From positions 310,001 through 374,000 of the forward strand of contig NZ_CP009501.1 of NCBI RefSeq assembly GCF_000969885.1: DNA of 64,000 nt, in the 5' to 3' direction. The notes under the pieces were generated by a model. That model saw only the letters and a list, made by a program, of their open reading frames with translations, did not search any database and was not told the DNA's origin. Source of the stretch: Methanosarcina thermophila TM-1 (GTDB lineage: Archaea > Halobacteriota > Methanosarcinia > Methanosarcinales > Methanosarcinaceae). Below, one piece after another: positions 51,900 to 64,000 of the stretch; within the stretch, counting starts at the first letter, position 1, and each line of letters opens with the position of its first letter. The position numbers and the translations under genes are program-made.

Positions 51900-52166
51900 T
51901 CAACTGATCTGACATGGAGAGCGTGCCTCATTTGTGACTTCAAGGATTTCCTGGGCAATCTGGATAAGCCTGAGCCAGGTATTGAGGGCTGAACGAAGGG
52001 AAACGACATCTGCGGCTTTTACGCTCAATACCAGCCTGTTTTTGTCCTCAAGGGACAGGTCTATTACAGACCTTTCGGAAAAGCTCTCACTGAGCTCGGG
52101 CAGGAGAGCCCTGTAGATTATTTCTGCGGTTTCGGTTTCAAAGGTGAATTCTGCGAAAAGTTTCAA
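51900..52166 (-). CDS. pcc1: KEOPS complex subunit Pcc1-like protein
   Basis: 88 residues with the Pcc1/CTAG fold pattern: KLFAEFTFETETAEIIYRAL, then DLSLEDKNRLVLSVKAADVV and SLRSALNTWLRLIQIAQEIL. Pcc1 is the dimerising subunit of KEOPS, which makes tRNA t6A. Start is TTG at 52166, preceded by AGGAGGA with five bases between, so TTG use is well supported. The gene is solitary here. Confidence 0.75.
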   Translation of the reverse strand: MKLFAEFTFETETAEIIYRALLPELSESFSERSVIDLSLEDKNRLVLSVKAADVVSLRSALNTWLRLIQIAQEILEVTNEARSPCQIS

Positions 52167-52277
52167 GGAATTCCTCCTGAAGAATCCTGTTTTTAGTATT
52201 TTAATCGTTTTAACGGTTTTTGAGTTAGATAGAGGAATCGATTTATAAAAGCCAGTTATAAAATAAAAGTCTGGAGG

Positions 52278-52652
52278 TCAGTACTTTTTAAAACCCCGGA
52301 GATTAAGTTTAAAAAGTGACTTTCCGCTGCCAATAAAATCGATATACTCTTCCCTGATAACTATCAGAGTGGAATTCGGAGGAAGCTGATCGATTTTGTC
52401 GCTTTCAACCCTCTTGAACTGGAAAAAGGACTCAAAGGCGTCTGCAATCTCTCCCTGACCTGAGAGCGCGGGTTCGGCGCCAGGGAACCAGTAGGAATCA
52501 GCTTCCTCGGAATACCAGTCCGTAAACCTGATCGAGAAAAGGAGCTTCCCATTTTCATCATAAAAGCTGAGTTCTCCTGGATTTCCGTGGTACTCCCCTA
52601 TAATTATGAGAGGTCCGCCATCCGCAAATTCCAGGAGTTCTTTCATGCCCAT
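52278..52652 (-). CDS. Conserved hypothetical protein
   Basis: About 124 residues from the ATG at 52652 (or 52646): [20 protein letters not shown], then [31 protein letters not shown] and a C-terminal [20 protein letters not shown]. Soluble alpha/beta protein with no recognised family. Upstream CGGAAAAA is a modest ribosome site. The frame is open 33 codons further upstream, but that part has different composition. Confidence 0.65.
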
Positions 52653-53282
52653 TTTTCCGCGTGTTATACACCTGCCGGCTATAAACCGTGAAATTAACTT
52701 GCAAAGCGACCTGGTCCTTACAGAAGGTTTTCGAGAGGTGGTAATTAGCATACTTCCCCTGATAGATTGGAAGTATATATTAATTTCTCCTCGCAGGGTT
52801 AAGATTTATTCTGTTTAGAGGTTGTTAATGAGTTTTCCACATTAAGCCTATCCCAATATTCAAGGTTTACTTTTTGGAGCTCATATTTTAAGTGATTAGT
52901 CATGCTAACACTATGCAGCTAATCTTAGAAATTTCTGTATTTTAAAATAAATATAGTTTTTCTGATATTTTATAATAAATATAGTTTTAAAGTTGACTCT
53001 AAAAATAAATCTTTTGATAACTTTTACTCCTCTTGCCTAAAAGATACAGGAAATATTAATAGTTCAAATTAATAATTAACATGAAAGGCTTTTATATTTT
53101 TGTTATAATATCCTTATATTGTGGTAGGATAATGTGGGGCTGTTAAGTAATTTCCCAACTTTCCTGAGATTCTGTCAGGATTATGGAAGCTAAGGTGTTT
53201 TTTCAGCTACACTTGAGCCTTTAAATGACTAGCCCTCGTAAATTTGAAAGTACAGCAAATTGTAGAAAGGGGTGGAATCTTA
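52653..53282. other. AT-rich spacer with a 26-base near-duplicate
   Basis: TGTATTTTAAAATAAATATA at 52936 on and GATATTTTATAATAAATATA at 52964 on are consecutive near-copies, each ending GTTTT. Promoter-like AT-rich DNA continues to 53110. No credible gene before the small HTH gene. Confidence 0.35.
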
Positions 53283-53456
53283 ATGAGTCGCCGATCTCCT
53301 CCAAAAAGGAGAGGTCAGAAACCAAAATTCGATCACGAAAAAATCGAAGAACTCCTCAGAGCAGGTGAGAAACCTGTTAAAATTATGCTTCTGGTTGGTT
53401 GTTCGTATGGGGTTTTACGATATGTACGAAAGAAAATGGGGAGAAAGAAAGTATAA
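53283..53456 (+). CDS. Small HTH protein
   Basis: 57 residues, very basic: SRRSPPKRRGQKPKFDHEKI, then a resolvase/Hin-like HTH (IEELLRAGEKPVKIMLLVGC, SYGVLRYVRKKM). AGGGGTGG precedes the ATG at 53283. It looks like a single DNA-binding domain. Could be a regulator or a mobile-element relic. The frame is open upstream to 53244, but the ribosome site points to 53283. Confidence 0.6.
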   Translation: MSRRSPPKRRGQKPKFDHEKIEELLRAGEKPVKIMLLVGCSYGVLRYVRKKMGRKKV

Positions 53457-53617
53457 AGAAGCATAACTCTGAAGAGAAAATATATTTCTGAAAAGATATT
53501 TATTTGCATTGGGTTAAGGTAAGATCTATAAGAAATATGTTGCTTTTAATGTGTTTTCCTGTTAGCCAATTATTACGTTTATTGAATTAATTATTGAGTT
53601 GTTGAGGGGTGAAAAAT

Positions 53618-53917
53618 ATGGCTAAAAGAATAGTTGCAATCGCTCTTACCTCCTTACTCATAGTAGGACATATGTTCAGGCGGTGGAAACATATGCAAAA
53701 ATCTCCTGTCTGGAGAGGATTTCTAAGCGAATCTATGTGGATAGATGACTATAGAAACCTATCGCTTTTCAAGAAACTGATTTTCTGGGTGAATTATCCG
53801 TTCTCTTATGCTAAGTATTTATGGGTTGTTGTATGGGATCGTATTGATAGACTGTCCTTTAGAGATTCAAAAGCAAGGTATGCTAAAATAGGGATGGAAT
53901 ACCAGAGAGCTTATTAA
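53618..53917 (+). CDS. Small membrane-anchored protein
   Basis: 99 residues: an N-terminal hydrophobic segment (IVAIALTSLLIVGHMF), then a basic/aromatic region (RRWKHMQKSPVWRGF) and a weaker second hydrophobic stretch (LIFWVNYPFSYAKYLWVVVW). AGGGGTGAAAAAT precedes the ATG at 53618 in good register. No family recognised. Confidence 0.6.
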   Translation: MAKRIVAIALTSLLIVGHMFRRWKHMQKSPVWRGFLSESMWIDDYRNLSLFKKLIFWVNYPFSYAKYLWVVVWDRIDRLSFRDSKARYAKIGMEYQRAY

Positions 53918-54012
53918 ATGCAATGACCACGGAAAAGTTAAGTTTTGTTTAATCGCCTGACAACTTGCCAGTATCTCTTTTAACTATTTCAATATCTCTT
54001 TTAATATTTCTT

Positions 54013-55311
54013 TTATACTGACACATCGATTATTTTTTGTTTCTTCTCCATTTTCTCAAAGAAGATATAATAAAGGACAGTAGCCGCTACATATAGGATG
54101 CATGTCAGGAGGAAGGGAAGGGTATAGAGACCATGAGCCATCATCAGGCCGCCTGCATAGGTACTTAATCCTACAAAGGTGTAGCAGCTCATCCAGATCA
54201 GGCTGTTCACAGTTGCCCTTTGATCTTCACTGACTATCTCCATATTGAAACTGCTCAATACTGGATTTGACATATTCATTATAGCTGACCTCATAACAAA
54301 TCCAAAAGCAGCTATTGCAAGTATGGATGTGGATATAAAGAGCAGGAGAAAAGGTATTGAGGCAAGCTGAACCAGGGCTACAACTTTTACCTTCCCGAGA
54401 CCTTCTGTAAGTATGGGAACAAACAGTAAGGTAAACATCATCACCAGCTGAGAAAGAGAAAAGATTGCGCCTATTTGCTCCGGGCTGGCTCCTAATACAA
54501 TATCAAAATATACATTAAAATAGGGAAGGGCAAGTCCCCATCCCATGCCTATTAACCCGTTTACAAGAATCAATTTTCGAATTGTCACTGACCTTAAAGT
54601 GGAAAAAAGGGTGGAAAATGCGGCTGATCTTTCCACCAGGTTGTTTCTCTTACTATCAATGAATATTAAAGGTAACAGGGAAATTAATACAGCGGCAAGT
54701 GACGCATATAATGAAAGCTGGTAAGCAGCCGGTCCTGTAGGGTTAATGTCGAGGAAACTGGTGAATATTTGCGGCAAATTGCCTCCTGCAAAGTTTCCTA
54801 TCATGACCCCTACAGTGTATAGCAAGTAGTACATCGAAAACAGGTGCATTCTCTCATAGCTCGTAGAGTTCTCAACCATGAATGTGGGCGCTGTAACAAT
54901 CTTGAGCGATGAGGATACACCGTAGACAATGCTGAAAAAAGCTAGCAGGAATTTTGAGGTGGTAGTGTACAGGATTGAAAAGGATAATAGGAGAAGCGAG
55001 CAGGACAATAACAAGGTATTCTTTCTACCTGCCCTATCGCAGAACATGGCTGCAGGTATTGCGGACAGTCCGGTAGATATGGAAACAAGTGAGAGCATAA
55101 AACCGAGAAAATCCTCTCTGTATCCAAGCCTTAAGATGTATAGATTGAAAATCACTTCGTAGATTCCCAGACTCAAAGAGATGAGAAATACGTATACTAA
55201 AAACAAGCATGCATTTCTACTGAAGCCGTTTAGCTTTGCCCTGTACCCGGCAACCGCACTTATGGCTGTATTTAGAACAAGCTTACTGTTAAATGATGGG
55301 TATTTTCTCAT
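54013..55311 (-). CDS. MFS transporter, last gene of the ABC-methyltransferase operon
   Basis: 432 residues, twelve hydrophobic spans, MFS type. The cytoplasmic loop 2-3 motif is DRAGRKNTLLLS near residue 89, with ASPEQIGAIFSLSQ in the second half. It lies 35 bases after the second permease gene, so it is probably the last gene of the transport operon. In bacterial metallophore loci the MFS partner exports the chelator before the ABC importer retrieves the metal complex; that role is a hypothesis here. The start ATG at 55311 has a weak ribosome site. Confidence 0.88.
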   Translation of the reverse strand: MRKYPSFNSKLVLNTAISAVAGYRAKLNGFSRNACLFLVYVFLISLSLGIYEVIFNLYILRLGYREDFLGFMLSLVSISTGLSAIPAAMFCDRAGRKNTLLLSCSLLLLSFSILYTTTSKFLLAFFSIVYGVSSSLKIVTAPTFMVENSTSYERMHLFSMYYLLYTVGVMIGNFAGGNLPQIFTSFLDINPTGPAAYQLSLYASLAAVLISLLPLIFIDSKRNNLVERSAAFSTLFSTLRSVTIRKLILVNGLIGMGWGLALPYFNVYFDIVLGASPEQIGAIFSLSQLVMMFTLLFVPILTEGLGKVKVVALVQLASIPFLLLFISTSILAIAAFGFVMRSAIMNMSNPVLSSFNMEIVSEDQRATVNSLIWMSCYTFVGLSTYAGGLMMAHGLYTLPFLLTCILYVAATVLYYIFFEKMEKKQKIIDVSV

Positions 55312-55346
55312 GGTAACTACTCTGAAGAAATATAGAACATAGGGTC

Positions 55347-56180
55347 TTAGTCAATGTCCTTCTTTTCTCTTGGGTCAAGCAGGTCCCTTAATTCATCTCC
55401 TAGGTAATTAAATGCCATAACCGTAAGCATGATGGCAATCCCCGGGAAAATCATGATGTAGGGGACGGATCGAATGTATGTTTTTCCTTCACTTAGCATG
55501 GAACCCCATTCCGGAGTAGGCGGCTGCACACCAAAACCCAGGAAGCTGAGCCCTGCTGCAGACAGTATCACATATCCCATTCCTATAGTTGCCATTACTA
55601 TGAGGGGAGATATGATATTTGGAATTACATGGCGCAGGATCACATGCATATCTCCTGCCCCAAGCCCTTTAGCAGCCTTGATGTAATCCTGTTCTTTTAC
55701 TGTCAGGACAGAACCCCTGGCAAGACGGGCATAGCCAGCCCAATCCACTGTTATTAGGGCTATGACCAGATTCATGAATCCTGCACCGAAAAGCCCGGCT
55801 ATACCAAGTGCCAGCAGCAGGCTAGGAAAAGCCAGGAAAGCGTCAACAACCCGCATAACTATCTCATCTAGCCACCCCCCATAATATCCAGACAGAGTAC
55901 CAATGGCAAGACCTAAAACAAAGGAGGAACTCACTACCAGAAGTCCTACTAATAACGATACTCTTGCGCCAAAAATTATGCGGCTTAGTATGCAACGGCC
56001 AAGATGATCGGTTCCAAACGGGTACTCTCTGCACGGCTCTTTAAGTCGGAGTTCAAGATTTGCTTTTTCAGGGTCGTGGGGAGCTATATATCCTGCAAAA
56101 AGTGCTGCAAGTATGAAAAAAATGAGGATCCCTGCACTGAGAAACAGTCCCAGATTGTTGTTTTTAAGTCTTGCTTTCAT
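55347..56180 (-). CDS. ABC importer permease, DppC/NikC/OppC type
   Basis: 277 residues, six spans. The BPD-transport permease EAA loop is GLGAGDMHVILRHVIPNIIS near residue 185. The N-terminal block (NNNLGLFLSAGILIFFILAA and YPFGTDHLGRCILSRIIFGA) is typical of DppC/NikC. I choose the ATG at 56180 (MKARLKNNN), which overlaps the end of the upstream permease gene by 17 bases; the frame is open 20 codons further without a ribosome site. It partners the permease at 56164-57108. Confidence 0.93.
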   Translation of the reverse strand: MKARLKNNNLGLFLSAGILIFFILAALFAGYIAPHDPEKANLELRLKEPCREYPFGTDHLGRCILSRIIFGARVSLLVGLLVVSSSFVLGLAIGTLSGYYGGWLDEIVMRVVDAFLAFPSLLLALGIAGLFGAGFMNLVIALITVDWAGYARLARGSVLTVKEQDYIKAAKGLGAGDMHVILRHVIPNIISPLIVMATIGMGYVILSAAGLSFLGFGVQPPTPEWGSMLSEGKTYIRSVPYIMIFPGIAIMLTVMAFNYLGDELRDLLDPREKKDID

Positions 56181-57108
56181 ATCTGATCTTTGGGTTAAGG
56201 TAAGCATAGGATATATCCACTGCAAAATTAACCAGGACAAATATCACAGCAATGAAAAGCACACAGCCCTGTATCATGGGGTAATCCTTGCTGAGTATGG
56301 ATGAAACGATGAGGTTGCCTATCCCTGGCCAGGAAAATATTGTCTCAACTATGACAGAGCCGTTCAGAAGATACCCGAAATTCAGCCCTGCAACCGTTAC
56401 AACAGGGATGAGTGAGTTCTTTAAAGCATGCTTAAGAATTATTATATGTTCAGGAACTCCTTTGGCTCTGGCTGCCCGGATGTAATCTTGCTGCATCACG
56501 TCCAGCATACTTGCTCTCATCAGTCTCATGGTTACAGCTGCATAACTCGTTCCAAGGGTGATGGCAGGCAAAAAAATGTAAGTCAGGCTTCCATCTCCAT
56601 ATCCTGATGAAGGCAAAATCTCCAGGATAAGCGCGAAGACTATGATCAGGATATAAGCTTGCCAGAAGCTGGGCATTGAGACTCCTGTAAGGGCAAATAA
56701 CCTGCAGGCAGCATCCACAGCTGTTCCTTTTCTCAGGGCTGAGAGAATGCCTAAGGGGATTGCAATGATAAGGGAGACCAGCATACTGATTACAGCAAGT
56801 TTCAGGGTGACTTTAAAGCATCTGAGAATTGCCTCCGAGACATTCTCACCTGTCATGTACGATTCTCCAAGGTCTCCACGGAGGACTTTCTCCATCCAGT
56901 TAATGTACTGGATATGTACAGGGTTATCAAGCCCTGTTTTAGCCCTGAATTCTTCTACGGCTCTCTGATCGACACCTCCCATGGGATTCATAAGTGCATT
57001 CTCTGCCGTATCTCCAGGTGAGATATAGGTTATAGAAAAACTGATAACAGAGACCAAGAAAAGGACAGGGAGAAGAAGTAAAAACCTTCGAGTTATGAAC
57101 TCTATCAC
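56164..57108 (-). CDS. ABC importer permease, DppB/NikB/OppB type
   Basis: 314 residues. DppB-type N-terminus (LLLLPVLFLVSVISFSITYI, SPGDTA), and the EAA loop RAKGVPEHIIILKHALKNSL near residues 205-224. Start is GTG at 57108. It is in the middle of the operon, 44 bases after the methyltransferase gene and overlapping the next permease gene. Together the pair forms the membrane channel for an oligopeptide, nickel or metallophore importer. Confidence 0.93.
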   Translation of the reverse strand: MIEFITRRFLLLLPVLFLVSVISFSITYISPGDTAENALMNPMGGVDQRAVEEFRAKTGLDNPVHIQYINWMEKVLRGDLGESYMTGENVSEAILRCFKVTLKLAVISMLVSLIIAIPLGILSALRKGTAVDAACRLFALTGVSMPSFWQAYILIIVFALILEILPSSGYGDGSLTYIFLPAITLGTSYAAVTMRLMRASMLDVMQQDYIRAARAKGVPEHIIILKHALKNSLIPVVTVAGLNFGYLLNGSVIVETIFSWPGIGNLIVSSILSKDYPMIQGCVLFIAVIFVLVNFAVDISYAYLNPKIRYESKT

Positions 57109-57152
57109 AGGTCATTTCTCCTTTATATGTCCAAAATTTCTTTCCAGGTTGC

Positions 57153-57863
57153 TTATTTTTCTGCTTTGATGAAGTAAATCGGATCGGAGGAATCATGTTT
57201 ATCAAACAAACTGTCTTTCTCCTTTTCAAATTTACAAAAGTCCTCCATCCGTGTTATACTGACAGTTCCAAATCCGGAATCCTTAAAGATTTTAGATAAA
57301 TACTCAGGCTTTAAACTGAATAAAGGAAGATCTTTTTTAATGGGCTCATACTGCTTTCTGAAAATCTTCATGTAATTTTCTTCCTTCTTTCTTCCGGACA
57401 GGCTTTGCTGATTCCACTCTCCATCTATTGCAATTATTTTTCCGCCATCTTTCAGGACTCTCCTCCATTCCATCAATGCTTTTCTGGGATCTGGAAGAGT
57501 CCAGAGTAGATATTTATTAACAACTACGTCGAAATATGCATCAGGTAGCTGGAGGTTTTCCGCATCCCCCTGGAGGAAGTCTATCTTAAGTGATCTTTTT
57601 AATGCATTTCTTCTCGCCTTCTCCAGCATGTTATTTGATAGATCAACCGCTGTTACTTCATTTCCCATTTCAGCGAATAATAGCGCCAGAAAACCAGGGC
57701 CGGTTCCTACGTCAAGGACTTTCAAGCCTTTTTTTCCCTCTACAGCTTTTAAAAGCATAGCTTTCCAGGCATTGCGTCCTTCTTCAGAATTTTCGATAAC
57801 TCCGTTGTTATAACTCTCACTGCGGTAATCCCAGTAGCTCTGGATAATTTTTTTAGTGTCCAT
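57153..57863 (-). CDS. SAM-dependent class I methyltransferase (copy 1)
   Basis: 236 residues. Begins MDTKKIIQSYWDYRSESYNN. Motif I LKVLDVGTGPGFLALLFAEM near residues 48-67, the acidic end of strand 2 in TAVDLSNNMLEKARRNAL, and post-motif LQGDAENLQLPDAYFDVVV mark a class I, UbiE-like methyltransferase. It starts one base after the stop of the binding-protein gene and precedes the permeases, so it is embedded in the transport operon. A close paralogue (62211-62957) diverges from the operon. Substrate unknown; methylation of the transported chelator, of a corrinoid or of a nickel cofactor precursor are possibilities. Confidence 0.9.
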   Translation of the reverse strand: MDTKKIIQSYWDYRSESYNNGVIENSEEGRNAWKAMLLKAVEGKKGLKVLDVGTGPGFLALLFAEMGNEVTAVDLSNNMLEKARRNALKRSLKIDFLQGDAENLQLPDAYFDVVVNKYLLWTLPDPRKALMEWRRVLKDGGKIIAIDGEWNQQSLSGRKKEENYMKIFRKQYEPIKKDLPLFSLKPEYLSKIFKDSGFGTVSITRMEDFCKFEKEKDSLFDKHDSSDPIYFIKAEK

Positions 57864-57864
57864 A

Positions 57865-59466
57865 TTATTCCTCCAGGTAAATGTCTTTGGTCAGGAATGA
57901 CACTTCATTTGGAAATTGTTTAAATCCGCCAACCTTTGCATTTGCTCCGACTATAGAATTCTGGTAGAACACGAAAAGTTCAGGACAGTCTTCCATTACC
58001 TGCATTTGCACACTGTCATAGTATTCCTTTCTTTGTGCCGGGTCCATGGTCTGCCTTCCCGCTTCAATCCATTCATCTACCTGGGGATTTGAGTAGCCAG
58101 TTCTCTGTGCCTCGCTCCCAGTAGACTCAAAATGTTTAGAAAGGATGTAGTCAGGATCTCCAGTAGGAGCTACTCCCCAGGCATAGAGAGAAAGGTCATA
58201 GTTTCCGTTATCCATGTCGGTTTCAATTGCACCACTTTGCAGGATACTGACACTGGTTTTTAGCCCAATTGATTCAAACTGAGATTCGATTACCTCTGCT
58301 GCAGGCTTAAGCTGTGGGCGGGTAGTATAAGTCTTTATATTTAATTCAAAGGGCTCTCCATTATATTCCAGCCAGCCGTCTGCATCAACATCACTAAAAC
58401 CTGCTTCTGTCAATAATTTTTTAGCTTTCTGCTCATCACGGGAAAGAGCATCTATCTTATCATTAATCGACCATTCCATTACAGATGGGAATATACTCTT
58501 TGCAGGGGTTCCCCCTACACCTTCAAGTGCAGAATCCACAATTTGCTGGCGATCAAGGGCACAATTCAGAGCCTGTCTTACTTTTACGTCATCAAATGGT
58601 GCCTTTTTCGTGTTGATATACAGGAAATATGTTCTTAGCGTTTCTTTGTCGTATACAGTAAAATCAATATTATTGCTCAGCCTCTCCACTTCGGATTGGG
58701 GAATATCGCTAGCGATGTCAACTTCATTATTTTCCAGCTTGAAGATTCTGGACATTTCATCAGGTACGTAATATATGATTGCCCCATGGAGCCTGGGAAT
58801 ACCGTTCCAGTAATCTTCGTTCCTTTCCACAACAAGGCTTACATCCCTGCTGAAGCTTTTAAATTTAAAAGGACCTGTCCCAACTGGATTGGTACTGAGA
58901 TCTTTCGCACTAGGACTGACTATTGATGTAACAGGGTCTGTGAGGCTTGCTATGGTAGGAGCGTATGGATATTTTGTTTTTATTGTGACGACATTCTCAG
59001 AATCTTTGGTTATGTACTCAATAAAGTCATATTCCCCTTTTCTTGAATTATTAGAGTCCAGCACCCTGTTAAGAGAATATATTACCGCATCTGCATCCAA
59101 TGGGGTGCCGTCATGGAACTTTACTCCCTCCCTAATATGGATCTTCCATTCAGTATCTGAGATCTGTTCATATTTCTCAGCAAGTTCGGGTTGAAGGTCC
59201 ATATTTTCATCATAACTGAAGAGGGTTTCATATATCCCGGCTTCTCGCATAGACCAGCCAGTCCATTTTATCGCCGGGTCAAGAGTATCAGTAGGGATAG
59301 AAGCATCGGCATATCTCAATATTCCTCCCTGGCTCGATATATTGGTCTGGTTTGCAGATGCCGTTTTTTCTCCACTACTCTGGTCGATACACAACGATCC
59401 CAGGACTGTAGCCATGACTACCAGCATGACGGGAACTGTAATCCTATATTTTTTATTGATGTACAT
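57865..59466 (-). CDS. Extracellular solute-binding lipoprotein (SBP_bac_5 family)
   Basis: 533 residues. An N-terminal signal (VPVMLVVMATVLGSLC) ends with lipobox Cys26. Family 5 binding-protein blocks follow: YETLFSYDENMDLQPELAEK, REGVKFHDGTPLDADAVIYS, NPVGTGPFKFKSF, VRQALNCALDRQQIVDSALE and DYILSKHFES. The ligand could be a peptide, nickel or a metallophore complex. Located between the ATPase genes and the methyltransferase gene, it is the capture protein of the importer. Confidence 0.95.
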   Translation of the reverse strand: MYINKKYRITVPVMLVVMATVLGSLCIDQSSGEKTASANQTNISSQGGILRYADASIPTDTLDPAIKWTGWSMREAGIYETLFSYDENMDLQPELAEKYEQISDTEWKIHIREGVKFHDGTPLDADAVIYSLNRVLDSNNSRKGEYDFIEYITKDSENVVTIKTKYPYAPTIASLTDPVTSIVSPSAKDLSTNPVGTGPFKFKSFSRDVSLVVERNEDYWNGIPRLHGAIIYYVPDEMSRIFKLENNEVDIASDIPQSEVERLSNNIDFTVYDKETLRTYFLYINTKKAPFDDVKVRQALNCALDRQQIVDSALEGVGGTPAKSIFPSVMEWSINDKIDALSRDEQKAKKLLTEAGFSDVDADGWLEYNGEPFELNIKTYTTRPQLKPAAEVIESQFESIGLKTSVSILQSGAIETDMDNGNYDLSLYAWGVAPTGDPDYILSKHFESTGSEAQRTGYSNPQVDEWIEAGRQTMDPAQRKEYYDSVQMQVMEDCPELFVFYQNSIVGANAKVGGFKQFPNEVSFLTKDIYLEE

Positions 59467-59520
59467 AGAACCCTATCCATATTACATTCATTCTTTCATT
59501 TCTAAGATCCAGCAACGAGG

Positions 59521-60504
59521 TCAGGCAACAAGCTGATCACTGGTAACACCCGTTTTACCTGCGTACCTGTCCTGATAAGGCTGCTGAGTACTTTTTTCAA
59601 GTACATGATGACATGCAACAAGTTGATTTTTCAGCTCTTTCAATTCTGGAGTTTTTGTGAGGCAGATTTCTGACCTGAGGAGACATTCCTGATAATACGG
59701 ACAGGTAGTTCTCAAAGTCTTTTTGATTTCACTGACATTAACCTCAGAATCAGCTTCCTCTGCCAGCAACAATTGTGTGTAAGGGTGTAGAGGGGAGTGA
59801 AAGATGTCTTCTATTTTTCCAGTTTCCACAATCTTTCCCCTATACATCACAGCTACCCTGTCGCACATATGTTTGATCAACTCAAGATCGTGCGAGATGA
59901 ACAGCATAGTAAGGGCATACTTTTCTTTCAGGTGTCTTAGCAGGTTCAATATCTGTGCCTGTACCGAGATATCCAGGGAGGCGGTTGGCTCATCAGCAAC
60001 AATAAAAACAGGTTTAAGAGCAAGCGCTCTTGCGATAACTGCTCTCTGGTTCTGGCCTCCACTGAGCTGGTAGGGAAAGCGGTTGACATGTTCGGGACTC
60101 AGCCCAACCTGCCTGATAAGCTCTAAGACCCTGCTTTTAACCGCCTCCCGATTGTTACCCTTAAGTTTTAGTGGTTCAGCTATGCTCTGCCCAATTGTCA
60201 TTTTGGGATCAAGGGAAGAGTCAGGGTCCTGAAATATCATCTGCATGCAGGGACGGATGTTATTCAACGCCTTATTATCAAGCGCGGTCAATTCTATTCC
60301 ATTAAAAATAATCTTTCCTGCTGTTGGTTCTATAAGCCTGAGGATACACTGTCCCAGAGTAGATTTCCCACTCCCGCTTTCCCCTACAATGCCAAGAGTC
60401 TCCCCTTTTTCTATGTGAAAGGATACATCATCCACTGCTTTGATTCTGGTTCTGGGAAGGAAGCCGGAAGTAAATATTTTTTTAAGGCCTTTTACCTCAA
60501 GCAT
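59521..60504 (-). CDS. ABC importer ATPase, DppF/OppF type
   Basis: 327 residues. Walker A GESGSGKSTLG near residue 40, Q-loop MIFQDPDSSLDP, signature LSGGQNQRAVIARAL, Walker B VFIVADEPTASLD and the C-terminal oligopeptide-type extension with Cys pairs (CPYYQECLLRSEIC). An MLEVKGLKKIF start overlaps the upstream ATPase gene by eight bases. With the DppD-type gene it forms the heterodimeric motor of the importer. Confidence 0.93.
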   Translation of the reverse strand: MLEVKGLKKIFTSGFLPRTRIKAVDDVSFHIEKGETLGIVGESGSGKSTLGQCILRLIEPTAGKIIFNGIELTALDNKALNNIRPCMQMIFQDPDSSLDPKMTIGQSIAEPLKLKGNNREAVKSRVLELIRQVGLSPEHVNRFPYQLSGGQNQRAVIARALALKPVFIVADEPTASLDISVQAQILNLLRHLKEKYALTMLFISHDLELIKHMCDRVAVMYRGKIVETGKIEDIFHSPLHPYTQLLLAEEADSEVNVSEIKKTLRTTCPYYQECLLRSEICLTKTPELKELKNQLVACHHVLEKSTQQPYQDRYAGKTGVTSDQLVA

Positions 60505-61429
60505 AGAGAAAACACCTCACAGTCCTGCCATTTTTTTCGAGCATGAGAGGGTGTTCGGTTTTACACCTATCACTGCAATAACTGCAACGAGGATGGAATC
60601 TGCATCCCTTGGGAGGATCGATTAAAGAAGGGCTGCTGCCTTTTATTGGTTTAAGCCCCCTTGCAGGGAGAGAGTTAAAAAAGCCCCTTGTGTAGGGATG
60701 CAGCGGGTTTTTAAATATTAATGCTGCAGGTGCAATCTCCACTAATTCTCCTGCATACATCACAGCAACCCTATTGCATACTTTCTCTGCAACCTCCAGG
60801 TCATGGGTGATGATTAACATCGTATTTTTTTCAGAAATGTCTCTTAAAAGTCTCACTATTTTCCTTTTTACAGTTATATCCAGACCCTTTGTTGGTTCAT
60901 CGGCAATGATAAATCGAGGTTCACTGGCAATACCCATGGCTATTACTGCCCGCTCTTTCATCCCTCCGCTAAACTGGTGAGGGTAATTTTTTGCTCTTTT
61001 CCGAGGTTCTTTGATCTTTACGAGCCCCAGAAGCTTCTCTGCCATCTCAATAGCCAGGCTGCCTTTTACTTTTTTATGCAACATTATAGGCTCAGCTATC
61101 TGAGAGCCGACTGTCAATCCTGGATTAAGAGAACTTCCAGGGTTCTGGAGTATCACGCCAATTTCCTTGCCCCTGAGTTTTCTCATGGCGTCTTCTTCAA
61201 TCGAATACAGGTTTTTTCCACAGTAGAGAATCTCCCCTTTGAGAATAACATCTTCCTGCAGTAACCTCATGACAGAAAGTCCAAGTACGCTTTTGCCACA
61301 GCCTGATTCCCCGATAAGTCCTAAAACTTCATTCATTTTTATGGAAAGGTCTACCCCATTTACTGCCCTGACCAGACCGTCGTCAGTGGGAAAATCCACG
61401 TATAAACTGGAAATTGTGAGTAAATTCAA
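60497..61429 (-). CDS. ABC importer ATPase, DppD/OppD type; first gene of the operon
   Basis: 310 residues. Walker A GESGCGKSVLG near residue 38, signature FSGGMKERAVIAMGI, Walker B FIIADEPTKGLD, H-loop IITHDLEVAEK, and the C-terminal oligo_HPY-like CRFHPRCSYCSDRC block whose Cys can bind an iron-sulfur cluster in some members. It heads the minus-strand operon of seven genes (to 54013) and faces the divergent second methyltransferase gene. Confidence 0.93.
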   Translation of the reverse strand: MNLLTISSLYVDFPTDDGLVRAVNGVDLSIKMNEVLGLIGESGCGKSVLGLSVMRLLQEDVILKGEILYCGKNLYSIEEDAMRKLRGKEIGVILQNPGSSLNPGLTVGSQIAEPIMLHKKVKGSLAIEMAEKLLGLVKIKEPRKRAKNYPHQFSGGMKERAVIAMGIASEPRFIIADEPTKGLDITVKRKIVRLLRDISEKNTMLIITHDLEVAEKVCNRVAVMYAGELVEIAPAALIFKNPLHPYTRGFFNSLPARGLKPIKGSSPSLIDPPKGCRFHPRCSYCSDRCKTEHPLMLEKNGRTVRCFLYA

Positions 61430-62210
61430 TAAAAATCACTCTCTTATTAATTTGGATATAAAGCAACGCTCCTGCATTTGCTGGAGTAGTTTTTTATAAC
61501 AGATACTTCCAATGTTTTTCATTTTTAAAACACTATATCATATGAATAATGAATTTAATAAAACTAAATATTAATAATTTCTAAATTTTTATGCTAGGAA
61601 TAAACATAAAACATGATCATTATAAAACTTTCGAATTTATCCTGTATGTAAAAGTAATAATATTGGTTCATTTTTATTGCAAAAATATGAGGATAAAAGT
61701 AACAATAATGTTTCTTTTAAGATATACCTTTTAGATGCATTTTTTAAGATACGGCTTTTAAGACATACCTTAAATTTTGATTTAAGGTTATTATTGATCA
61801 AAACTGCTGCTAAATAATTCTGAGAATAGTTTAATTCTGCTTTACAGGAGTTTAATAAATTTAATGTTGATTTTCAGGTATTTGGTTAGAGATTTACTGT
61901 CTCTTTTCTCTCATTCCTATGACAGAAAAATCAATTGTTTCTCATTTCTGTTTTCTCATTGTTTCCTGTAAACTTACATTTTTAAGCGGATTTTTCTTTT
62001 TTCTATCTTACTCATTCTTATGGATTTTATTATATCAAATCTTACGGATTTTATTATATCGATTCAAACTAATGTTAAAAAAAGTTAATATTTTATATGC
62101 TTATAAGATATAGTGTTACGTTTAATGAGATATTTATTCACACACTTGGTCATTTTAATTAATTTGCCCTTAGGCAAATGATTTTCTTAACTCATCTTAT
62201 GGGTGAACAT
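61430..62210. promoter_or_regulatory. Divergent regulatory region of the ABC-methyltransferase locus
   Basis: 781 bases of AT-rich DNA between the operon start and the divergent methyltransferase. It contains a 24-base tandem duplication (62016-62039, 62040-62063) with core GGATTTTATTATATC, and TTTTAAGATA followed by TTTTAAG-type phrases near 61718-61770. TATA-like runs lie near 62088-62105 upstream of the plus-strand gene. No NikR, Fur-like or other known operator is recognised. Confidence 0.45.
62016..62063. repeat. 24-base tandem duplication upstream of the second methyltransferase
   Basis: TCTTATGGATTTTATTATAT followed by CAAA, then TCTTACGGATTTTATTATAT followed by CGAT, lie head to tail about 150 bases upstream of the ATG at 62211. 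Two adjacent copies of a site like this suggest a cooperative operator, but the AT content makes chance duplication plausible. Confidence 0.6.
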
Positions 62211-62957
62211 ATGGAAATTAAAGAAATGATTAGAGATTACTGGGATTACCGCAGTGAGGTTTATAGCACTGGCATTGTAGAATACTCAGAAGAAGAGCGC
62301 ACTGCTTGGAAAAACATGCTTTCATCAGCATTAAACCGAAGAGAACAGCTCGAAATTCTCGATGTCGGTACAGGTCCAGGTCAACTTGCTTTGATGTTTG
62401 CAGAGATGGGACATCATGTGACTGCAGTTGACCTTTCAACCAATATGCTGGATAAAGCTAGAAAAAATGCCTTGAAGAGATCTCTGGACATAAATTTCAT
62501 TCAGGGAGATGCAGAGGATCTGCCGTTTCCGGACATGCAATTTGACGTAGTATCCAGCAAATTTCTCCTGTGGACGCTTCCTAACCCGCAAAAAGCTCTG
62601 TCCGAGTGGGGGCGGGTATTGAAGAAAGACGGAATGGTCATTGCTATCGACGGCGACTGGTTCAACTCAGGGATATTCCTGAGATCGATACGTACGGTAT
62701 CGGATTGCATACGTTCCATAAAGGAAAGAAAACACCAAAATCCCTATAAGCAACACTATAACCTGATTAAAAACGACCTGCCTCTTTATAGCTTGAAACC
62801 TGACCGGGTATTCAGGTTCTTAAACGATGCAGGTTTTGAGAAGATTAATATTGAGCGTATGGATTCCCTCTGCCGTTCAGCCAGGAAAAAAGGGAGCCTT
62901 CTGGATAAGCTCGACTATGCTCATCCTATTTATTGTATAAAGGCTGTTAAAAGATAG
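62211..62957 (+). CDS. SAM-dependent class I methyltransferase (copy 2)
   Basis: 248 residues. Paralogue of 57153-57863: MEIKEMIRDYWDYRSEVYST, motif I LEILDVGTGPGQLALMFAEM near residues 48-67, TAVDLSTNMLDKARKNAL, and IQGDAEDLPFPDMQFDVV. It contains an insertion near residues 155-175 (FLRSIRTVSDCIRSIKERK) relative to copy 1, plus a C-terminal YAHPIYCIKAV. GGTGAACAT precedes the ATG at 62211 in perfect register. It is transcribed away from the transport operon and may share control with it. Confidence 0.9.
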   Translation: MEIKEMIRDYWDYRSEVYSTGIVEYSEEERTAWKNMLSSALNRREQLEILDVGTGPGQLALMFAEMGHHVTAVDLSTNMLDKARKNALKRSLDINFIQGDAEDLPFPDMQFDVVSSKFLLWTLPNPQKALSEWGRVLKKDGMVIAIDGDWFNSGIFLRSIRTVSDCIRSIKERKHQNPYKQHYNLIKNDLPLYSLKPDRVFRFLNDAGFEKINIERMDSLCRSARKKGSLLDKLDYAHPIYCIKAVKR

Positions 62958-63390
62958 TTATTATAACTCTGTTGCAGGGGAACTAGGTTTTTAAATTGTT
63001 AAAAAATAAACTGTCAGAAATCTTAGGCAATACCGTTCAATTCTTTTCTTCGAACAACCTCAATTAGCAAGCAAAAGAAGTTAAAAAGAAATTTTCGGCA
63101 AAGATGTCGATCTTTACTTCCATTGGGAAACAAGATCATATAAACCTGGTATTAAGCCATTTCTGGAACTGAACCCAGATACTACAGAAGAAATCAGGGG
63201 ATTATTTCAAAATAAATTTTCAGATCTTTAACCTTGATAGAAAATATATTTTTAAAAGTATTCGTTTTTCTGTTTATCCTATACATCGAATAATTAGATA
63301 GTAGGATTAGATAGTAGGGCTCATGTTCACAGAAGCCCGGTCTTTATCTAATACTTCATTTGCTTGCCGAAAAATTATAAAGAAACTCCT
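62958..63390. other. Spacer with a decayed gene end
   Basis: A plus-strand fragment at 63085-63231 is listed separately. Otherwise AT-rich, with TATA-like DNA near 63240-63295. It separates the methyltransferase gene from the convergent rpo12. Confidence 0.3.
63085..63231 (+). pseudogene. C-terminal remnant of an unknown protein
   Basis: After a stop at 63082-63084 an open plus-strand frame reads EIFGKDVDLYFHWETRSYKP, then IKPFLELNPDTTEEIRGLFQ and ends NKFSDL, TAA at 63229. Composition is coding-like but there is no start codon or ribosome site. I do not recognise the family. Confidence 0.35.
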
Positions 63391-63528
63391 TTATTCGGCC
63401 TTAATGCGCTTGATGGTTGTAGGACGCTCTTTTACCAGGATTCTGTGCCCGCAGTAGGGACATCTTATACCTGTGTACTCGTAGTCGATTTCCACTTTCT
63501 GCTTACATCGAGTGCATTTGTATCCCAT
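63391..63528 (-). CDS. rpo12: DNA-directed RNA polymerase subunit Rpo12 (RpoP)
   Basis: 45 residues: [20 protein letters not shown] then [20 protein letters not shown] and RIKAE. The two Cys pairs (CTRC and CPYC) form the zinc ribbon of archaeal Rpo12 / eukaryotic RPB12. The C-terminal [16 protein letters not shown] is diagnostic. It is 20 bases downstream of the ribosomal protein L37Ae gene and co-transcribed with it, a usual archaeal pairing. Only a weak ribosome site is visible. Confidence 0.95.
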
Positions 63529-63548
63529 ACAACCACAACCTTACAGAT

Positions 63549-63926
<378 letters not shown>

Positions 63927-63980
63927 TCAGATTCCTTTGTCACTTATTGCCGTGTACTTAGACCGTAATACTGGCATTTC

Positions 63981-63994
63981 ATATTTATATTTAA
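63981..63994 (-). promoter_or_regulatory. TATA box of the rpl37ae-rpo12 operon
   Basis: On the minus strand TTAAATATAAATAT is a strong archaeal TATA element. A start site 25 bases downstream, near 63957, would give a leader of about 125 bases before the ATG at 63833. The leader includes the inverted GGGT...ACCC pair at 63900-63923, which might act as a control element. Confidence 0.55.
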
Positions 63995-64000
63995 TTAATC

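Follow-up and report, generated by a model that had tools for sequence, protein, structure and literature searches.

The nickel-chelate importer of Staphylococcus aureus consists of the binding protein NikA (Opp5A) and the transporter NikBCDE (Opp2BCDF), and to our knowledge its operon contains neither a methyltransferase nor a major facilitator superfamily (MFS) gene. In the staphylopine, pseudopaline and yersinopine (Cnt) loci, an Opp-type importer, an MFS protein and enzymes dependent on S-adenosylmethionine (SAM) lie together in one locus. The locus described here lies in a 64,000-nucleotide stretch of the archaeon Methanosarcina thermophila TM-1 (contig NZ_CP009501.1, positions 310,001 to 374,000 of the forward strand; hereafter the window), part of a 3,127,379-base single-contig genome whose relatives and gene content are Methanosarcina-like. 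It combines an importer that, judged by sequence and predicted structure, most closely resembles the S. aureus nickel system with an MFS gene and two class I SAM-dependent methyltransferases, MT1 and MT2. Both methyltransferases belong to a clade that has a conserved association with metal-chelate importers and with nicotianamine synthase (NAS) and Cbi genes. We read the locus as a metal-chelate acquisition module, likely for nickel or cobalt, in which the methyltransferases would tailor a chelator, the MFS protein would export it and the Nik-type importer would take it up again; we give this reading a probability of about 0.45.

The seven genes of the operon follow one another on the minus strand from 61429 to 54013, in the order ATPase, ATPase, binding protein, MT1, NikB-like permease, NikC-like permease and MFS protein, with MT2 diverging from them; all frames are open. 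The first ATPase gene (AtpD, 60497 to 61429; PF00005 and oligo_HPY, best NCBIfam model of the OppD/NikD type) overlaps by 8 nucleotides the second (AtpE, OppF/NikE type by Pfam and NCBIfam family matches, 59521 to 60504). After 54 nucleotides comes the gene of the NikA/Opp5A-like family 5 solute-binding protein (57865 to 59466; PF00496, E 3.6e-92), separated by a single nucleotide from MT1 (57153 to 57863), which is followed after 44 nucleotides by the NikB-type permease gene (56164 to 57108). The latter overlaps the NikC-type permease gene, which runs from 56240, or probably from an inner ATG, to 55347, and the MFS gene (54013 to 55311; PF07690, E 1.3e-31) begins 35 nucleotides further on. 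MT2 occupies 62211 to 62957 on the plus strand, and its start at 62211 is more likely than one at 62178 because the relatives align from METKEVIRNYW; orthologues are present in five of them (G080, G104, G083, G077 and G079). These frames, family assignments and measured coordinates agree with the initial annotation, which had described a seven-gene operon with a divergent paralogous methyltransferase, gaps of 1-54 bases and two overlapping pairs. Its further claim of a Nik/Opp-type importer is likewise supported by the permease scores and the fold of the binding protein given below.

In the importer, the two permeases pass the NCBIfam cut-offs of Opp2B, ‘nickel ABC transporter permease’ (373 bits against 350), and Opp2C, ‘nickel transporter permease’ (325 bits against 300). 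The predicted model of the binding protein has a predicted local distance difference test score of 90, and its top structural match is S. aureus NikA (Z 43.9, 26% identity), in a structure carrying a nickel-histidine-thiazolidine chelate. Close to the top stand CcNikZ-II, the nickel ATP-binding cassette (ABC) binding protein of B. halodurans and NikZ; peptide-binding and other family 5 proteins likewise score high. S. aureus NikA and the B. halodurans protein both have arginines at the positions aligned with Arg278 and Arg383. The likeness to the S. aureus system thus lies in the two permease cut-offs, the fold match and the aligned arginines, whereas the window system is archaeal. NikABCDE was recorded in three of five Methanosarcinales by Zhang et al. 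(PMC2667541). The lipobox region of the binding protein (59340-59400, minus strand) reads GSLC where relatives have SGC, which leaves lipid anchoring uncertain in this species. The other Opp cluster of the genome (L138:10261-17129; G000:C1:2422482-2425651) provides a contrast case: its two binding proteins are in tandem, and it lacks a methyltransferase.

MT1 and MT2 are paralogues of 56% identity. Their best-scoring named models are UbiE/MenG and CpaM, at about 40-60% of the cut-offs (UbiE/MenG: 81.5 and 91.7 bits against 158); their earlier designation as UbiE-like is supported. The context also differs from that of UbiE/MenG and CpaM, as MT1 and MT2 stand beside metal transport genes and not beside quinone or corrinoid protein genes. 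Placement of MT1 in the metal-transporter-associated clade comes from family, tree, fold and context together. Its structural matches are ordinary methyltransferases with the generic class I small-molecule fold; nothing points to a NAS-like aminobutanoyl transferase, although absence from a match list excludes nothing.

The linkage of this clade to importers was measured in four complete genomes (G000, which contains the window, G061, G075 and G078), where all SBP_bac_5 genes and all matches to the methyltransferase profile were listed. Of the high-scoring clade members, 20 of 29 have an SBP_bac_5 gene within 5 kb, compared with 3 of 49 lower-scoring class I methyltransferases (Fisher p 5e-9; chance expectation 1-3% of positions). 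Those three exceptions belong to a second methyltransferase type, located next to other binding proteins, and most of the nine clade members away from SBP_bac_5 genes are found in Fec or NAS loci. Among 135 clade members from retrieved loci, a set partly picked through binding-protein matches and containing some repeats, all but about 8 have a metal-transporter or NAS gene within 2.5 kb. Fifty-five co-directional pairs of binding protein and methyltransferase genes are at most 200 bp apart. Adjacent binding proteins and methyltransferases co-diverge (r 0.73, 32 pairs, 0 of 2000 permutations), which shows co-inheritance and not function. The second methyltransferase type, more distant and about 300 residues long, lies outside the clade and directly adjoins other SBP_bac_5 genes (G075:C1:980838, G078:C1:1691542, G061:C1:1159673).

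This linkage bears directly on the possibility that the locus encodes an ordinary nickel or oligopeptide importer, with the methyltransferases and the MFS protein as unrelated passengers engaged, for example, in drug modification and efflux. The generic MFS family matches, the generic methyltransferase fold and the loss of MT1 from two relatives (G104 and G083) are in keeping with such passengers, but the enrichment, the recurrence of the importer-methyltransferase pairing in several families and the co-divergence all run against them, and we consider this explanation improbable. In a neighbourhood comparison, at least eight genera of Methanosarcinaceae have the unit of binding protein, methyltransferase, NikB and NikC, together with the ATPases, and the methyltransferase usually lies between the binding protein and the permeases. 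As many genera share this gene order, which the initial annotation had suggested looking for, the clustering is not due to chance. In other families of the phylum, orthologous binding proteins have an adjoining methyltransferase in L216-L219 and L223-L226, while in the short contigs L220-L222 none was seen beside them. Distant importer paralogues carry their own methyltransferase paralogues, in some cases one at either end (L106, L149-L156, L169-L174). Fec/Btu-type ABC loci (L105, L154, L182-L186) contain up to three paralogous members of the clade, and tandem binding proteins with flanking methyltransferases occur in L100-L104.

The clade is connected to chelator synthesis by its neighbours. 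In several Methanosarcina and related genomes, a clade methyltransferase adjoins NAS (PF03059) and CbiM/CbiQ/CbiO-type genes; in L081, CbiM, a 148-residue frame, CbiQ, an ATPase and NAS lie on one strand, with the methyltransferase convergent after NAS. In a maximum-likelihood tree, the NAS-linked methyltransferases fall inside the importer-linked clade that holds MT1 and MT2 (support 99/98), and one sub-clade mixes the two kinds (support 99/95). One type of enzyme therefore serves in both contexts. The window genome has one NAS (G000:C1:302161-302973, 173 bits, above the PF03059 cut-off), 59 kb from the operon. Aligned with the thermonicotianamine synthase of Methanothermobacter, MtNAS, it retains both catalytic residues, E81 and Y107 of MtNAS, the counterparts of which AtNAS1 requires (PMC10248798); it differs from MtNAS in being a predicted NAS. 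In Methanosarcina, NAS genes often form tandem pairs (L080, L083, L086, L088, L089, L145, L147), and several matches in these loci contain one in-frame stop, which could mean decay or misassembly of some copies.

The parallel with staphylopine-type loci drawn in the initial annotation gains from these neighbours, the NAS homologue of the genome being kin to CntL. An MFS_1 protein, assigned by its family match, is a candidate counterpart of CntE. The locus resembles staphylopine systems but does not belong to the Cnt group: it has no NAS-like enzyme in the place of CntL, its importer scores far below the cut-offs of the Cnt importer models, and it contains methylating-type methyltransferases instead. 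No opine dehydrogenase (CntM, PF10100) was found in 112 family genomes, in a search whose control was silent too.

In the proposed module, an extracellular metal chelate of low molecular weight would be bound by the NikA-like protein and imported by the NikBCDE-like ABC transporter, as their families and folds suggest. MT1 and MT2 would act on an organic chelator and not on protein or membrane. The chelator may be amino-acid-derived, possibly a nicotianamine-like ligand tailored by the methyltransferases, with methylation taking place either before export or after import. The MFS protein would export the tailored ligand, and the ABC importer would retrieve it. The metal handled is most likely nickel or cobalt.

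Several findings weigh against this module. The binding protein has Opp5A_nikA as its best NCBIfam model but reaches only 340 bits of the required 600, which also sets it apart from the S. aureus system, and both ATPases remain under the NCBIfam cut-offs. In place of R97, R137, Y402 and H416, the ligand residues in E. coli NikA (PMC2667541), the window protein has S, V, T and G, a clear difference from E. coli NikABCDE. About 12 genomes with importer and methyltransferase, several of them complete, give no NAS match, which rules out the NAS product as a substrate common to all. Two relatives (G104 and G083) retain the operon without MT1, G083 with MT2 elsewhere in the genome, and only some lineages have the MFS gene in their orthologous loci. 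The initial annotation had proposed that the locus makes or methylates, exports and retrieves a small metal-binding compound, and had held that orthologous loci lacking the MFS or methyltransferase genes with transport function unchanged would speak against this. Loci of such gene content are found in part, as are loci in which MT2 and the MFS gene persist without the importer (G077 and G079). The hypothesis is strengthened by the chelator-linked clade and by the NAS in the genome, and weakened by an optional MFS protein, which is a component of this locus but not of all its orthologues, and by the lack of MT1 in some orthologous operons. In favour of the module, MFS genes of a different group recur in sister loci L100, L162, L168, L224 and L226.

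The same losses bear on the rival that survives best, in which an imported chelate, perhaps the product of other organisms, is methylated inside the cell to release its metal and the MFS protein expels the spent ligand. That the methyltransferase gene stays with importers even in NAS-less genomes, that such enzymes accompany Nik/Opp, Fec and Cbi importers alike and that the MFS gene is dispensable would all be expected of such processing. On the other side, the NAS-linked methyltransferases suggest a biosynthetic role, and in G077 and G079, which encode other Nik/Opp importers, this importer is gone while MT2 and an intact MFS gene remain at the two ends. In G079, the importer was deleted with both ends of the locus kept, as a 75-residue scar of the first ATPase (L076:5462-5689, minus strand) lies between the intact MFS and MT2 genes. 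Because MT2 and the MFS gene persist there without the importer, methyltransferase and exporter form a separable part, which fits making and exporting a chelator better than pure post-import processing, though both genomes have other Nik/Opp importers as well; we regard the latter as unlikely, with perhaps one chance in a few.

Least probable of the three alternatives is the salvage of corrinoids or nickel tetrapyrroles, close to the corrinoid or nickel cofactor option of the initial annotation, in which the importer and its partners would handle corrinoids or F430-like molecules and the methyltransferases would modify them: other clade methyltransferases do occur in Fec/Btu-type loci (L105, L154), and sister loci of g5, g10, g13, G054 and G075 encode a 4Fe-4S protein of the QueG/reductive-dehalogenase superfamily, but the window genome has no QueG-superfamily protein at E 1e-20, the NAS linkage points to small chelators, and we know of no NikA-type importer that carries corrinoids. 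Known members of the superfamily use cobalamin. The proteins in or next to Nik-type loci (L082:10926-11738, minus strand; L092:13496-14194, plus strand), with counterparts in L078, L079, L093, L094, L095 and L098, may bind it.

Beyond this locus, the metal-chelate module may have a wider counterpart. Methanosarcinaceae and their relatives could possess a family of archaeal metallophore systems in which small chelators of iron, nickel or cobalt, nicotianamine-like or other, are modified by members of this clade, with a separate methyltransferase partner for each type of importer (Nik/Opp, Fec, Cbi); we put this forward tentatively and hold it more doubtful than the module itself. Few organisms use as much nickel and cobalt as methanogens, whose sulfidic habitats offer little of either metal. 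No paper on the pairing of a methyltransferase with a Nik importer, or on a methanogen metallophore, was found in the open-licence full-text literature, and we know of no secreted metallophore characterised from any methanogen. In M. barkeri proteomics, OppA, dipeptide and nickel binding proteins, including two adjacent OppA pairs, were far less abundant under Fe(II)/cysteine than under FeS2 or sulfide, a pattern read by its authors as cell-cell recognition (PMC10846266) and also compatible with metal limitation. As a guess, the tandem binding proteins of L100-L104 may be the same genes. A clade that tracks both chelate importers and NAS offers a direct genetic handle, with enzymes, binding proteins and a test organism named. 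It would reinterpret proteins annotated as oligopeptide importers, including those M. barkeri recognition candidates.

Upstream of the operon, several candidate regulatory elements were considered. The two tandem 24-mers at 62017-62064, previously suggested as operators, are excluded as a conserved operator array, since one copy is missing in the close relative G080. The palindrome TTTGCCCTTAGGCAAA at 62163-62178, perfect here, is interrupted in G080 and missing upstream of other MT2 genes, and no role is claimed for it. No riboswitch was matched in Rfam at E up to 1 within 52000-64000. Two NikR homologues are encoded elsewhere in the genome. The promoter-like 11-mer GATATAGTGTT lies about 100 nucleotides upstream of the operon (61529-61539, minus strand) and again, as GATATAGTGTT(AC), about 104 nucleotides upstream of MT2 (62107-62117, plus strand), each copy oriented alike with respect to its gene. 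With one mismatch allowed, it occurs 3 times in the window where 1.0 would be expected, which is weak taken alone. For ATATAGTGTTAC, the copy upstream of MT2 is the only intergenic exact match in the genome, one other match being intragenic, in a coding frame. The MT2-upstream element is conserved in G080, G104, G077 and G079, with 0-1 mismatches in GATATAGTGTTAC, and the GATATAGTGTT element may be part of a promoter shared by the operon and MT2.

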